Origin: Lachnospiraceae bacterium MA2020
GTDB taxonomy: Bacteria > Bacillota > Clostridia > Lachnospirales > Lachnospiraceae
DNA: 64,000 nucleotides
Reading direction: 5' to 3'
NCBI GenBank assembly: GCA_000746015.1
Contig: JQKK01000009.1
Location: 62,001-126,000, forward strand
Positions within the stretch are counted from its first letter, which is position 1, and each line of letters opens with the position of its first letter. The translations under genes were made by a program, and so were the position numbers. Positions 4,546-53,281 of the stretch are shown here, piece by piece. The notes beneath the pieces are model-generated. The model did no database searches, was not told the origin of the DNA, and saw nothing but the letters and a program-made list of their open reading frames with translations.

Positions 4546-5318
4546 AAAAAATTTTACTGGCAGGTGAATTTTCGGAAGTTTATCGTTCTGTTGGTGAGGC
4601 ATTATCAGGCGAATATCAGGTTCAGTTTTGTCCGGCAGAGGCTGAAAACATACATGGCATGGTCAGACTTTCAAATCCGGATCTGATCGTGGTATGTATG
4701 CCGGGGTTTGAGCCTCTTAACCCAAATATCTTTACGATCTTAAACAAAAAATGGAGCAATATTCCTGTACTGCTGATCACGACAAAAGAAAATTTTGAGG
4801 CTGTTAAATCACATTGTGATGATGCAAGGTATGATGTTAAATATATTCCTATCAAAAAGACTGAAATAATCGAGGCCTGTCATGGACTGATCGAACCAGA
4901 GCTTGTAAAGAAGCAGGAGGAAGAGCCTAAAGTATGGTTTGGAGAAAGACCTGACAAAACGAAAAAAAAGGTTTTGGTTGTTGATGATGCAGCAATCGTT
5001 TTAAGAAATGTAAAGTCGATGCTTGATGATAAGTATGAAGTGCTTTTGGCAAAATCAGGAGCAAAAGCCTTGGAGATAATAGCTGATCATATGCCAAACG
5101 TAGTGCTGCTTGATTATTCAATGCCGGAGATGGATGGCAAAGAAACTTTTAGGAAGATCAGGGAAATGGTCGGAAATGCGATCCCTGTGCTATTTCTCAC
5201 AGGAGCAAAGGATAAGCATACAATTGTAGAAGTTTTAGCTGAAAAGCCGGCAGGATATATTCTTAAGCCACCGGATAAGGACGAGATCAGAAAAAGAATT
5301 GAGCAGCTTATAGGATGA
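4542..5318 (+). CDS. Tandem-receiver response regulator, first receiver degenerate
   Basis: The GTG start overlaps the kinase stop codon by four bases, so translation is coupled. The 258-residue protein has two receiver-like domains and no output domain. The second (about 143-258) is intact: an acid pair in VLVVDDAA, phospho-acceptor Asp191 in VVLLDYSMP, and a conserved Lys in ILKPP. The first (about 1-110) lacks the acid pair and has CMPG where the acceptor aspartate should be, so it is probably a pseudo-receiver used for dimerisation or partner binding. Phosphate would come from the Hpt domain of the preceding kinase. Without an effector domain it should act through protein contacts, perhaps with other cassette products. 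Confidence 0.85.
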   Translation: MKKILLAGEFSEVYRSVGEALSGEYQVQFCPAEAENIHGMVRLSNPDLIVVCMPGFEPLNPNIFTILNKKWSNIPVLLITTKENFEAVKSHCDDARYDVKYIPIKKTEIIEACHGLIEPELVKKQEEEPKVWFGERPDKTKKKVLVVDDAAIVLRNVKSMLDDKYEVLLAKSGAKALEIIADHMPNVVLLDYSMPEMDGKETFRKIREMVGNAIPVLFLTGAKDKHTIVEVLAEKPAGYILKPPDKDEIRKRIEQLIG

Positions 5319-40825: not shown

Positions 40826-41872
40826 ATGAGAATTGGATTTGCGAAAAAAATAATTAAATGTTTGCTGGCCATGGCAGTTGGTGTCAGTATAGTAGGAACT
40901 TCAGTGTGTGATGCTCAGGCAGCGACGTCTGTTGTGGCAAAAATTCCTATTACACAAAAATATGCGGAAGAGGGAAGTATACCTGACGATCTGGATAGGA
41001 AATTTAACTATAAGCTCGTGGCTGAAAATGCAGCGAATCCGATGCCTGTGAATCCTGTATTTACACTGGAGGGGAACTCACAGACGCAGCTGCAGATAAC
41101 CTATGATAAGCCAGGTGTATACGGGTATCGATTTAGCCTCGTGAAACCATCAGATCCTATATCCAGAATGACTTATGATGCAACAGAGTATAAGATACAG
41201 GTTGCAGTGAAAAATGACGGAAAAGGTGGATTGTTCACGGCTGTATATGTATCAAAGAGTGGATCTTCATATAAAGCAGAAGAAATAAGCTTTAGTAATA
41301 AATATACTGGAACCAGTGATCCTGGAAAATCATCATCAAATAGTTCATCGTCGAGCAGCTCGTCATCAAGCAGCTCATCGTCGAGCAGTTCATCATCAAG
41401 CAGCTCATCGTCGAGTAGCTCGTCATCAAGCAGCTCATCGTCGAGCAGTTCATCGTCAAGCAGCTCGTCATCGAGCAGCTCGTCATCGAGCAGTTCATCG
41501 TCAAGCAGCTCATCATCAAGCAGCTCTTCATCGAGCAGCTCATCATCGAGCAGTACGTCGTCAAGTTCTTCAAGAAGGCGTAGAAGAAGACGTTCAACAC
41601 CGACAACTCCGACAACGCCTACAACAACACCTATTGCTCAGGCAATTACACCACCTTCGGGAGTTTTGGGAGAGAGAATGGCTCCTGATGAAGGGGCTCC
41701 TGATTCAGGAGTACTGGGAGAGAGAATGGGTCCAGACTCAGGCGTATTGGGAGAGAGAAATGCTCCAAATACCGGAGATCATTCAGAACCTATAGTTTGG
41801 GCAGGAATGGCAATTTTTGCATTAGGTATTATGTTTGTAGCAGTAAAAGAGATAAAGAAATCAAAAATGTAA
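40826..41872 (+). CDS. Minor pilin / basal subunit with poly-serine stalk
   Basis: A 348-residue secreted wall protein. After a signal peptide (about 1-31, ending AQAA) comes one FctA-like domain (about 35-160, with YDKPGVYGYRFSL and YKIQVAVKND). Residues 169-249 are almost only serine, followed by seven consecutive arginines, a TPT-rich stretch, and three SGVLGER repeats. The C-terminus APNTGDHS, a helix and KEIKKSKM forms an LPXTG-like sorting signal. By position and single pilin domain it is likely the base or an accessory subunit. It is the last gene of the operon before a strong terminator. Confidence 0.87.
   Translation: MRIGFAKKIIKCLLAMAVGVSIVGTSVCDAQAATSVVAKIPITQKYAEEGSIPDDLDRKFNYKLVAENAANPMPVNPVFTLEGNSQTQLQITYDKPGVYGYRFSLVKPSDPISRMTYDATEYKIQVAVKNDGKGGLFTAVYVSKSGSSYKAEEISFSNKYTGTSDPGKSSSNSSSSSSSSSSSSSSSSSSSSSSSSSSSSSSSSSSSSSSSSSSSSSSSSSSSSSSSSSSSSSSSSSSSSSSSTSSSSSRRRRRRRSTPTTPTTPTTTPIAQAITPPSGVLGERMAPDEGAPDSGVLGERMGPDSGVLGERNAPNTGDHSEPIVWAGMAIFALGIMFVAVKEIKKSKM
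41330..41572 (+). repeat. Poly-serine-encoding microsatellite-like tract
   Basis: Roughly 80 codons built from TCA, TCG, AGC and AGT in repeating TCATCGAGCAGC-like blocks encode serine with only one Asn and one Thr. Mixed codon use keeps it from being a simple trinucleotide run, yet block repetition makes it prone to length change in frame. Confidence 0.92.
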
Positions 41873-41919: not shown

Positions 41920-42801
41920 TCAATCGTTGACTATTTTCTTTGTGCAGGCAACTGCAAGGGAGCCTGGTCCGATGTGGCATGCTATCTGAAGTGCCAAAGG
42001 ATCGATGTGGACATCAAATCCCGGGAACTCTGCAAGCAGCTCTTCCTTGAGCGCTTCAGCAGCCTCCTGATTCTCTGTGTGGGCAATCTCGAGGTGATAG
42101 TTAGGTGATGCCATATCAAGGCCGCCTATCTTTTCCTCCATGTCCTCACGGATAGCGTTTATCATTATCTTCTTAGCCTGTTTGATACCGCGGCATTTTG
42201 AGAAAGCATCGAGCTTCTCGCCGTGAATCTGAAGTATCGGCTTGAGATTAAGTATCTTGGCAAAAGCTGCAGCGGCTGGTGTGATACGTCCTCCCTTCTT
42301 GAGATAGTCAAGTGTATCAAGCATGATATATATACTTGAGTCAAACTTTGTATCCTCAAGAATCTTTTTGATCTCGGCACCGGACTTGCCCTGGGCTGCG
42401 AGAGCCTTGGCATCAAATACGGACTGTCGGAGAGTAACGGATACTCTCTGATTGTTTACAACATGAACCTTGCCGGCAAAATCGTCCTCTTCAGAAAAGA
42501 GCTGTGCACTGGCACATGAGCCTGAGAGACCGCTTGAAAGAGGGATATATACGATCTCGTCGTGAGATGCGAGTACCTCGTTCCAAAGGTCAAGCACGCT
42601 TCCTGCGGCTGGCTGTGATGTATGTATGTCAGCACCTGATGTAAGGAACTCATAGAACTCATCATGTGTGAGATCTATACCATCAAGGTACTCCTTATTG
42701 TCGATAATGATAGGCATAGGGAGAACATAGATCCCGTTGTCTTTGCCTTCCTGTATTGTAATACCACTGGTGGTATCTGTTACTATTGCAATATTGCTCA
42801 T
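41920..42801 (-). CDS. DegV-family fatty-acid-binding protein
   Basis: A 293-residue cytoplasmic protein of the DegV/FakB group. It begins IAIVTDTTSGI, and carries HTSQPAAGS and YIPLSSGLSGSCASA, which line the fatty-acid carboxylate pocket, and LDTLDYLKKGGRI in the middle. FakB proteins present exogenous fatty acids to the kinase FakA for phosphorylation and entry into lipids; no FakA gene is near. GGGAGGAAA precedes the ATG. It is a single gene, convergent with the pilus operon. Confidence 0.92.
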   Translation of the reverse strand: MSNIAIVTDTTSGITIQEGKDNGIYVLPMPIIIDNKEYLDGIDLTHDEFYEFLTSGADIHTSQPAAGSVLDLWNEVLASHDEIVYIPLSSGLSGSCASAQLFSEEDDFAGKVHVVNNQRVSVTLRQSVFDAKALAAQGKSGAEIKKILEDTKFDSSIYIMLDTLDYLKKGGRITPAAAAFAKILNLKPILQIHGEKLDAFSKCRGIKQAKKIMINAIREDMEEKIGGLDMASPNYHLEIAHTENQEAAEALKEELLAEFPGFDVHIDPLALQIACHIGPGSLAVACTKKIVND

Positions 42802-43014
42802 TGTTTCCTCCCGTAAGTAGATTGGGGTTTTTGTTTTGTCGTATATTGATTAAATAGACGCTCGGAGAAAGATTGTATCACAAAATGGTCGATATAACAA
42901 GTGTATACAGTACCTCTAAGAGTACAATATTCTTGCATACAATATAAATTGCGCATCAACAAAGTGTAATTATCAGAATATTATATACAATAGAAAAATA
43001 ATTTTAAAATAGTG
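42802..43014. other. AT-rich spacer between DegV gene and non-coding RNA promoter
   Basis: This 210-base stretch should contain the leftward DegV promoter. I see no coding potential and no strong consensus element apart from the non-coding RNA promoter that follows. Confidence 0.5.
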
Positions 43015-43043
43015 TTGACAATATAAAAGCAATGAGTTATACT
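43015..43043 (+). promoter_or_regulatory. Consensus promoter of the non-coding RNA
   Basis: TTGACA (43015-43020, perfect) and TATACT (43038-43043) are separated by exactly 17 bp, one of the two best promoters in the window. No open reading frame with a ribosome site follows, and transcription should begin near 43050. Confidence 0.88.
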
Positions 43044-43049
43044 AAGTTC

Positions 43050-43450
43050 ATCAAAAACAAAGGAGAAAAAACATAGACAGAGAACAGGAGGTAAGTTCTC
43101 AAAAGTGAAAAAGAAAAGAGTAATGGTAAGGATTATTTAAGGATTGGAGGTACAGACCACCAGACAATTAAATTTCCAAGTCAACCTCTACTTTGACCGG
43201 TGAAGCTAGGGGCACTCATCACAAAACTAAATAAACTGATTCATCATCATAAAGCGCAAAGTAGATATCAGACGGGGCTTAGATGTGTATTAGGTCTCAT
43301 GGACGGATGGAGACAAATAGCCCGACAGAAAGAAACAGTTGTATATCGAAAAGCAGAATTGTGAGGTATAGTCCAATGGGACAATCAGATGATTCACAAA
43401 AGTAGAGGGAATGTCGTAAGTGATTAGTACGATGTTCCCTCTATTGTTTG
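43050..43450 (+). ncRNA. Structured non-coding RNA of about 400 nt, class not identified
   Basis: The unit runs from a consensus promoter to a strong terminator hairpin (43403-43443) but encodes no protein. It is less AT-rich than its surroundings and full of short motifs usual in structured RNA: GGAGGTACAGACCACC pairing in part with AACCTCT downstream, CGGTGAAGCTAGGGGC, GACGGGGCTTAGATG, and GAGGTATAGTCC. It is not tmRNA, RNase P RNA, SRP RNA or 6S RNA by their usual core sequences. The raiA-motif RNA of Firmicutes is one candidate that I cannot confirm. Possible roles are open; the neighbours (DegV and a peptidase) are transcribed leftward and are not in its operon. Confidence 0.7.
43403..43449 (+). 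terminator. Terminator of the non-coding RNA
   Basis: A two-part stem, 9 bp (43403-43411 with 43435-43443) and 5 bp (43414-43418 with 43428-43432) around a 2-by-2 internal loop, is followed by TTGTTT. It ends the non-coding transcript and may also act on the leftward peptidase gene ending at 43497. Confidence 0.85.
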
Positions 43451-43496
43451 CTGAAAAAGTTCGGACTGATATTCACAGGCCGGGTGTCAGATCATA

Positions 43497-44474
43497 TTAA
43501 GCGGTATGAAAGCTCTTGTATGACGGTAAGCCGTAAGATGGTTCAGCGTTTTTGACTGCGCGTGAGATCGCCTCACTCATGACGTCAGAGCTGAGAGTGC
43601 CTACCATGTCTTTATCTGCTTCTATATCGCCAACTGATACTGCATATACGCTGTCACCGTCGGCAGAAGTATGTACAGGCTTTATGGATCTTGCAAGACC
43701 GTTCTGAGCCATTGATGCTATCTTGCAGAGCTCTGTTTTACAGAATTTTGCGTTTGTGATTATTATTCCGATAGTGGTATTGCCGACAAATTTATTGTCG
43801 ACTCTTTCGTACTGCTGGTACATCAGATCGATAGAACTTCTGAAAGACTTTTTATCTTCACTTAAAAGTCCTGCTATTTTCTGACCGTTAGTATGATCAA
43901 AGATATCTCCCAAAGCATTGACGACAACGACAGCACCTACCTGAAGGTCACCTATCTGGACTGCATAGCTGCCGATACCTGACTTCATGCAATAGTCCAT
44001 TCCGGCAAACTTACCGACAGAGGCTCCGCAGCCTGCGCCGTAGTTTCCGTCTTTATAATTTCCATTTTCAGACGCTATAGCAGCTTTATATCCCATTTCT
44101 TTATCGGGTCTTGTAAAAGTATCGCCTACTGTCAGATCAAATATATCAGCCTGGCAGACAAGCGGAACTTTTGTAACGCCAACGTCAAATCCGATTCCTT
44201 TTTCTTCCAGATATTTCATAACTCCGCCGGCAGCATCAAGTCCGAAGGCACTTCCGCCGCCAAGTACTACGGCATGGATCGCCTCAGCACTTGCTACGGG
44301 TTTCATAAGCTCTGATTCACGTGAAGCCGGGCCTCCCCCACGTACATCAAGACCTGCACGCATACCGTTTTCGGAAATAAAAACAGTGCAGCCGGTAGCT
44401 GCGTCGGTATTTTCTGTCTGCCCGATACGGATGTTTTTGATATCGGTGATCTTTATTTCTTTTAAGTTTGACAT
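43497..44474 (-). CDS. P1-family (S58) self-processing aminopeptidase, DmpA/BapA-like
   Basis: A 325-residue protein of the N-terminal-nucleophile family that includes DmpA, beta-aminopeptidases and nylon hydrolase. The self-cleavage region NTTIGIIITNAKF supplies the Thr that becomes the N-terminal nucleophile of the small subunit. The large-subunit signatures GLDVRGGGPASRE, VLGGGSAFGLDAA and GAGCGASVGK are present. It has no signal peptide and should work in the cytoplasm on peptides or beta-amino-acid amides; the substrate is not predictable. GGGGG precedes the ATG. It is a monocistronic leftward gene. Confidence 0.9.
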   Translation of the reverse strand: MSNLKEIKITDIKNIRIGQTENTDAATGCTVFISENGMRAGLDVRGGGPASRESELMKPVASAEAIHAVVLGGGSAFGLDAAGGVMKYLEEKGIGFDVGVTKVPLVCQADIFDLTVGDTFTRPDKEMGYKAAIASENGNYKDGNYGAGCGASVGKFAGMDYCMKSGIGSYAVQIGDLQVGAVVVVNALGDIFDHTNGQKIAGLLSEDKKSFRSSIDLMYQQYERVDNKFVGNTTIGIIITNAKFCKTELCKIASMAQNGLARSIKPVHTSADGDSVYAVSVGDIEADKDMVGTLSSDVMSEAISRAVKNAEPSYGLPSYKSFHTA

Positions 44475-53107: not shown

Positions 53108-53180
53108 AGCGATAGACGGGATTCGAACCCGCGGTCTCCACCTTGGCAAGGTGGCGCTTTACCAGCTAAGCTACTATCGC
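53108..53180 (-). tRNA. tRNA-Gly (anticodon GCC), copy 2
   Basis: On the minus strand the 73-base sequence folds into a full cloverleaf: acceptor GCGATAG/CTATCGC, D arm with AGCTGGTA, anticodon stem CCACC/GGTGG with loop TTGCCAA, and T arm GGTTCGAATC. The anticodon is GCC. No CCA is encoded. It is identical to the copy at 53209-53281 and downstream of it in the same transcript. Confidence 0.97.
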
Positions 53181-53208: not shown

Positions 53209-53281
53209 AGCGATAGACGGGATTCGAACCCGCGGTCTCCACCTTGGCAAGGTGGCGCTTTACCAGCTAAGCTACTATCGC
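53209..53281 (-). tRNA. tRNA-Gly (anticodon GCC), copy 1
   Basis: Identical in all 73 bases to the copy at 53108-53180 and 28 bases from it. It is the promoter-proximal gene of the pair, and both are read leftward from the consensus promoter at 53317-53345. Confidence 0.97.

Follow-up and report, generated by a model that had tools for sequence, protein, structure and literature searches.

The window, a stretch of 64,000 nucleotides from the genome of Lachnospiraceae bacterium MA2020 (G000), contained a putative RNA gene that is conserved across gut and rumen Lachnospiraceae and belongs to a class absent from the RNA-family database searched. Its repeated motifs read as translation-initiation units, in which a Shine-Dalgarno (SD) core is followed either by a start codon opening an ORF of 2-19 codons or by a codon that is not a start. 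Sequence comparison at the locus and among its homologues showed the unit and its frame, early in-frame stops, a promoter, a 3' hairpin, neighbours that are not conserved, CodY-like boxes and compact viral copies. This anatomy is unlike that of an ordinary structured noncoding RNA and unlike that of an ordinary mRNA. Our best reading, favoured tentatively and rated somewhat short of even, is that of a CodY-controlled decoy RNA that would engage ribosomes.

We are highly confident of the predicted arrangement of units, frames, promoter and hairpin, all on the forward strand. A sequence-only reading of the locus had claimed a consensus promoter, and this was borne out: a -35 element TTGACA (43015-43020), a 17-bp spacer and a -10 element TATACT (43038-43043) gave 11 of 12 matches to the sigma-A consensus, and of 133 related loci, at least 118 had a TTGACA-17-TATnnT promoter within 600 nt on the 5' side of a unit. 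A CodY-like box, AATTATCAGAATATT (42968-42982, two mismatches to AATTTTCWGAAAATT), was centred 40 bp 5' of the -35 element. From the sequence and from homologues of like layout, the putative transcript was placed at 43050-43445 (~395 nt, without a long ORF), its start set ~7 nt past the -10 element and both of its ends being predictions. Within it, a first SD sequence, GGAGG (43087-43091), stood 13 nt before the GTG start of micro-ORF A (43105-43140; MKKKRVMVRII, peptides being written here without the stop that ends each), a gap that exceeds the ideal; versions of this ORF in relatives read MIKKGVTVRIT, MKKRVTIRIT and MLNWKGVVETRITK. A start-less SD unit followed at 43146-43171, comprising GGAGGTACAGACCA and then CCA GAC AAT TAA, with an in-frame stop and no start codon. 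A central stem-loop (GGGGCT/AGCCC) with an inner hairpin occupied 43274-43323, and the SD core GAGGTATAGTCC (43363-43374) opened micro-ORF C (43376-43405; ATG start, nine codons, MGQSDDSQK) across a GAGG-to-ATG gap of 9 nt, the stop overlapping the foot of a 3' hairpin (43401-43445). This hairpin, a presumed terminator as the earlier reading had claimed, was strong in the predicted fold (18 bp, -25 kcal/mol), but its tail was U-poor and a simple intrinsic-terminator scan found none at the locus; tails were T-richer in several relatives than in the window. Three motifs had been quoted as conserved structure, of which GGAGGTACAGACCACC (43146-43161) and GAGGTATAGTCC turned out to be SD units, while GACGGGGCTTAGATG does contain the 5' arm of a stem showing some compensatory changes. 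The claim that the region lacked protein-coding content did not hold, given micro-ORFs A and C and the frame of ORF C kept in relatives. A 348-aa ORF further upstream on the same strand (40826-41872) resembles a sortase-anchored protein of the surface or pilin type: its start is signal-like, its tail combines APNTG with a membrane segment, and it carries GVLGERM-type repeats and runs of arginine and of serine, the latter long and perhaps variable in length.

Searches with blastn matched the region at least in part in 28 of 145 genomes, its own included; beyond its own genome, 22 matches were in the same genus and five in other genera. Five long matches among relatives had 70-71% identity, and two short ones (L012, L027) were apparent chance matches inside genes. 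For the reading of the genus we dropped these two together with L002, L030 and L031 (duplicates) and L017 (below the cut), and read L026 (a compact two-unit form) and L020 by eye, outside the counts. The core GGTAYRGWCCRMYG was single in the window's genome, with no copy beyond the locus at zero to one mismatch and two at three mismatches versus three in a reversed control. Across GTDB contigs, GAGGTAYRGTCCRATGGGA recovered 107 stretches; among the 80 titles listed from these, 77 bore Lachnospiraceae or allied names, and the three from other groups (L053, L074, L112) were without the promoter. Of 396 genomes of the family, a strict 17-base pattern matched 33, among them the window's own, and its reversed control matched none; in a draw from the class, containing some 20 members of the family, the only match among 393 genomes was the window's own. 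A 19-base pattern that tolerated two mismatches matched in 31 of 120 family genomes, and its reversed control in nine. These figures of spread are provisional, because the search pattern was derived from few loci and diverged units escape it. Family counts leave out L053, L074 and L112 (other groups), L141 and L142 (viral) and, from transcript extraction onward, L047. In this last locus (Lactonifactor longoviformis, position 4744, - strand) an SD micro-ORF, MGK, preceded a long secreted-protein-like ORF, a single case in which the unit was perhaps re-used or occurred by chance. Some genomes held the motif at several places, on other contigs or within 1 kb (G245: C29 and C112; G205: C57; G347: C41 and C122). 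Among host loci the next gene lay on the opposite strand in 76 and on the same strand in 47 (n = 123), and no family of neighbours was common across genera, the largest cluster covering 14 of 134 loci. As neighbours are not shared and the next gene may lie on either strand, the unit stands alone. The earlier suggestion of an independent, conserved transcription unit of a still unnamed class was supported.

Rfam 15 at gathering score returned three tRNAs over the whole window and none of its families at the RNA locus. Two identical tRNA genes lie 28 nt apart on the - strand (53108-53180 and 53209-53281), and their anticodon, judged by eye, is GCC (Gly). At E <= 10, the interval 42800-43520 gave weak snoRNA and microRNA matches only, all below their own cut-offs; scans of 17 related loci gave five matches, none on the array, and scans of six viral loci gave none. 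The raiA RNA is, like the array, a stand-alone RNA, known from Firmicutes, but neither raiA nor any other Rfam 15 family reached gathering score at the locus, the array had no match in the related loci scanned, and the earlier proposal of a raiA-motif RNA was not supported. RNase P RNA was considered because GAGGTATAGTCC resembles its GAGGAAAGTCC; the genome's only type A match lies elsewhere (C9:72043-72396, 317.5 bits), and type B had no match in the genome. Similarly, TATAGTCC is presumably S-element-like and would point to a group I intron, for which no Rfam match appeared at the locus even at E <= 10. A Clostridiales-1 RNA shared the extracted locus with the array in L042 (42-209, -) and L084 (5270-5439, -), probably by chance. 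A limited search of open-access literature found no description of such an RNA, and two noncoding-RNA surveys (PMC11109978, PMC8632094), searched in their main text, contained none of the terms Lachnospiraceae, Lachnospira, Eubacterium and Ruminococcus.

Putative transcripts of 134-783 nt were extracted from the 102 loci at which both promoter and hairpin were recognised and the 5' end was distinct; GAGG occurred 390 times in these versus 230 +- 12 in shuffles, an excess that includes at least one copy per transcript present by selection. Removal of redundancy left 52 of 166 start units; in 51 of these a stop fell within 10 codons in frame, compared to 27 and 24 in the other two frames; the median stop lay two codons past the ATG, and the in-frame stop was strictly the nearest in 37. 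With a limit of four codons and 85 non-redundant start units (of 171), the counts were 62 in frame and 22 and 21 out of frame. The tiny ORFs MG, MGR, MGK, MA and MV recurred, and since several of these encode only two residues, a peptide can hardly be the product for many units. Successive units were spaced at 50-59 nt in 57 cases and at 80-89 nt in 36 (n = 129). With SD, start, in-frame stop within a few codons and a conserved frame, the predicted RNA would qualify as a micro-ORF (minigene) transcript. SD sequences were not predicted to be more accessible than background: the unpaired value was 0.52 for start units and 0.48 for start-less ones, and similar 4-mers from shuffled transcripts reached 0.50. 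The 16S 3'-end pattern, sought to see whether the spacer could pair with 16S rRNA, was absent from the window's assembly.

Units in which the SD core precedes a non-start codon (CCR, AAR) still led into an in-frame stop. Within four codons, a stop was found in frame in 21 of 28 CCR units (other frames: nine and six), in all 16 AAR units (eight and six) and in six of seven units with other codons (two and none). An earlier, looser set (n = 33; stops within five codons: 26, 19 and 10) gave the same trend more weakly. CCR and AAR are not known to serve as start codons, yet the periodicity of stops at start-less units fits poorly with an absence of translation. Such units may derive from decayed start units, or their frames may be fixed by the SD alone.

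CodY-like boxes with at most three mismatches occurred in 45 of 78 non-redundant upstream regions versus 5.0 +- 2.3 in shuffles, and at 59 of 96 family promoters versus one of 30 control promoters of the same loci, of which only seven were matched in AT-richness (box in one of seven). With the variant AATTGTCWGACAATT also allowed, a box at this threshold was found in 57 of 91 non-redundant regions and absent from the other 34. Centres crowded at approximately -10, -21, -30, -40, -49 and -61 relative to the -35 element, phased at 10 bp (R 0.71, n = 57), with p-values that cannot be taken at face value because many values come from related lineages. As codY was present in 32 of 34 carriers, including G000, and a box with two mismatches lies near the promoter in the window, the gene is a candidate member of the CodY regulon. 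A further variant like AATTGTCAGACAATT, seen in L089, L116 and the same-genus loci L009 and L010, departs from the CodY consensus at two symmetric bases; at up to three mismatches it occurred at 27 of 96 family promoters and at none of 30 controls, and may be a lineage-specific CodY site. Because centres lie mostly 5' of the -35 element in steps of ~10 bp, CodY is no less likely to activate the promoter in rich medium than to repress it. PMC6256015 describes CodY as both activating and repressing the hibernation-factor gene hpf of Staphylococcus aureus, and so provides a precedent for connecting CodY with the supply of ribosomes.

The array also appeared on contigs of uncultured viruses, 47 of which matched the 17-base pattern and 43 the promoter plus core. 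In 29 of these 43, which bear a compact form, the core opened a micro-ORF (MG, MGM, MV, MGN and similar), with a TTG start in L257, L260 and L266, and 28 contigs had a second unit 52-75 nt downstream (MDNVA, MDTVA, MDRIA, MDNVN or LYN); 14 of the 43 were without such a micro-ORF pair. A hairpin GTCAAG...CTTGACT was matched in 26 of 30 viral micro-ORF rows. The downstream protein of L142 had matches to DNA polymerase families of phages, and L142 also bears an HNH gene and a gene for a Dda-like helicase; the nearest named relatives of the viral polymerase-like protein, among the matches listed, were ~42% identical and from Enterococcus phages. One viral contig, L250, carried the two-unit RNA twice, ~1.4 kb apart. 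The phage collection yielded a single weak partial match to the window region (E 0.04) and a single one to the viral form (E 0.005), and the plasmid DNA collection yielded none.

Under the decoy reading, the strong sigma-A promoter would produce a stand-alone RNA of ~395 nt bearing a string of initiation units, at which ribosomes would load, make peptides of 2-19 residues or none, and then leave. Acting in trans, the RNA would serve as a decoy, keeping ribosomes occupied or idle; units without a start would perhaps hold 30S subunits or shield the RNA from 5' decay, and CodY would set the amount of RNA according to branched-chain amino acids and GTP. The two-unit copy in phages would act on host translation, an effect with which its presence there fits. 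Since many ORFs have only two codons and a peptide is unlikely to be the product of most units, the loading and release of ribosomes is the likeliest function. The lambda bar minigenes similarly place an SD before an ORF of two to three codons in a phage, whereas here such ORFs form arrays on a dedicated RNA and are found in hosts too.

The decoy reading leaves the central stem-loop of the window's genus unaccounted for, and an unlikely but serious alternative is a dual-function base-pairing sRNA, in which the structured middle and A-rich stretches would base-pair with mRNA targets, leaving the SD units only to stabilise the RNA or to couple its lifetime to translation, as an SD that stabilises an RNA is known from Bacillus (Stab-SD). 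In fold prediction, none of 100 shuffles did as well as the RNA itself (43046-43460; z -2.67), and an alignment of six close homologues, in which the terminator was misaligned, had compensatory changes in ten of 56 predicted pairs, including pairs of the central stem and inner hairpin, although some predicted pairs were broken in one or two sequences. In the central stem-loop, changes on both sides (in some sequence) affected two of six outer and two of five inner pairs, and here too some pairs were broken in one or two of the aligned sequences. This alternative would also suit a gene that stands alone and a 5'-proximal start-less SD unit whose conservation reached >=90% in a consensus built for one compact type (34 transcripts). 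In the window, the start-less unit at 43146-43171 could fold as a small hairpin with six pairs present in six of six aligned sequences, five of them invariant. Against it, the viral forms inspected in full (three) retained little besides promoter, units and hairpin. The label of structured noncoding RNA given by the sequence-only reading was half right at best: the compensatory changes in the central stem speak for it, but what the family shares is SDs and tiny frames, many of two to three codons.

Less probable again is a polycistronic mRNA for functional micro-peptides, although micro-ORF A (ending RIT) and terminal ORFs of the form MDx(I/V)x look conserved as peptides, which a pure decoy would not need. 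Terminal five-codon ORFs were found in hosts as in viral contigs, and their codon 4 encoded a hydrophobic residue in 16 of the 17 distinct ORFs from hosts and in all 10 from viral contigs, the D at codon 2 being imposed by the search pattern. The Arg of the terminal R-I of ORF A was encoded by CGG, AGG, CGT or CGA in several relatives, but not in L011 or L021; differences by codon position in this ORF (13, 13 and 21) came from four sequences, too few for use. In contrast, many ORFs are merely M-G-stop or M-A-stop, start-less units would give no peptide under known rules, and ORF C, which keeps ten codons in the window's genus while its peptide drifts, had no third-position excess (171, 170 and 160 differences, summed over 66 pairs). 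PMC10100781 states that the yrzI operon of Bacillus subtilis encodes multiple peptides of unknown function. Compared by that description, this RNA, a Rae1 target, likewise carries several small ORFs on one transcript; the arrays differ in having ORFs down to two codons, alternating start and start-less units and a conserved SD spacer.

CsrB/RsmZ decoy RNAs are also stand-alone with repeated SD-like sites, and a sponge of this kind, titrating a translational repressor that binds SD regions, would account for several GGA-bearing SD sites on one stand-alone RNA in a genome that encodes CsrA. We consider it very unlikely: CsrA was found in 15 of 34 carriers and is missing in 19, for which reason its titration fails as a general role, and in-frame stops would be unneeded; a repressor other than CsrA may still be the one bound. 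No more probable is a purely noncoding structured RNA with accidental frames, which the fold z-score and the ten compensated pairs would favour, but which leaves aside the stops that follow a three-base period in each of three unit types and the stop of ORF C, which in the genus is TAA, TAG or TGA at one fixed place. A leader or attenuator of a neighbouring gene is scarcely credible: of 44 viral rows, 21 had a DNA-polymerase-like start no more than ~2 kb further on, but the next gene was convergent in the window and on the same strand in only 47 of 123 host loci, with no common family.

That the decoy RNA founds a class of its own among regulatory RNAs, as a ribosome trap under CodY control that would tune the supply of free ribosomes to nutrients in Lachnospiraceae and is also carried on large phages, is possible though doubtful on present comparisons. 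If it is true, the stops behind CCA/CCG and AAA/AAG would mean that ribosomes placed by the SD core enter a frame without a normal start codon, and start-less units with kept frames would offer a natural test case for an SD alone setting the reading frame. Labels of 'noncoding' would likewise call for caution, as they overlook ORFs of 2-10 codons. More broadly, members of a bacterial family of importance in gut and rumen would control translation by an RNA that engages ribosomes without encoding a protein, and phages would carry that RNA as well.
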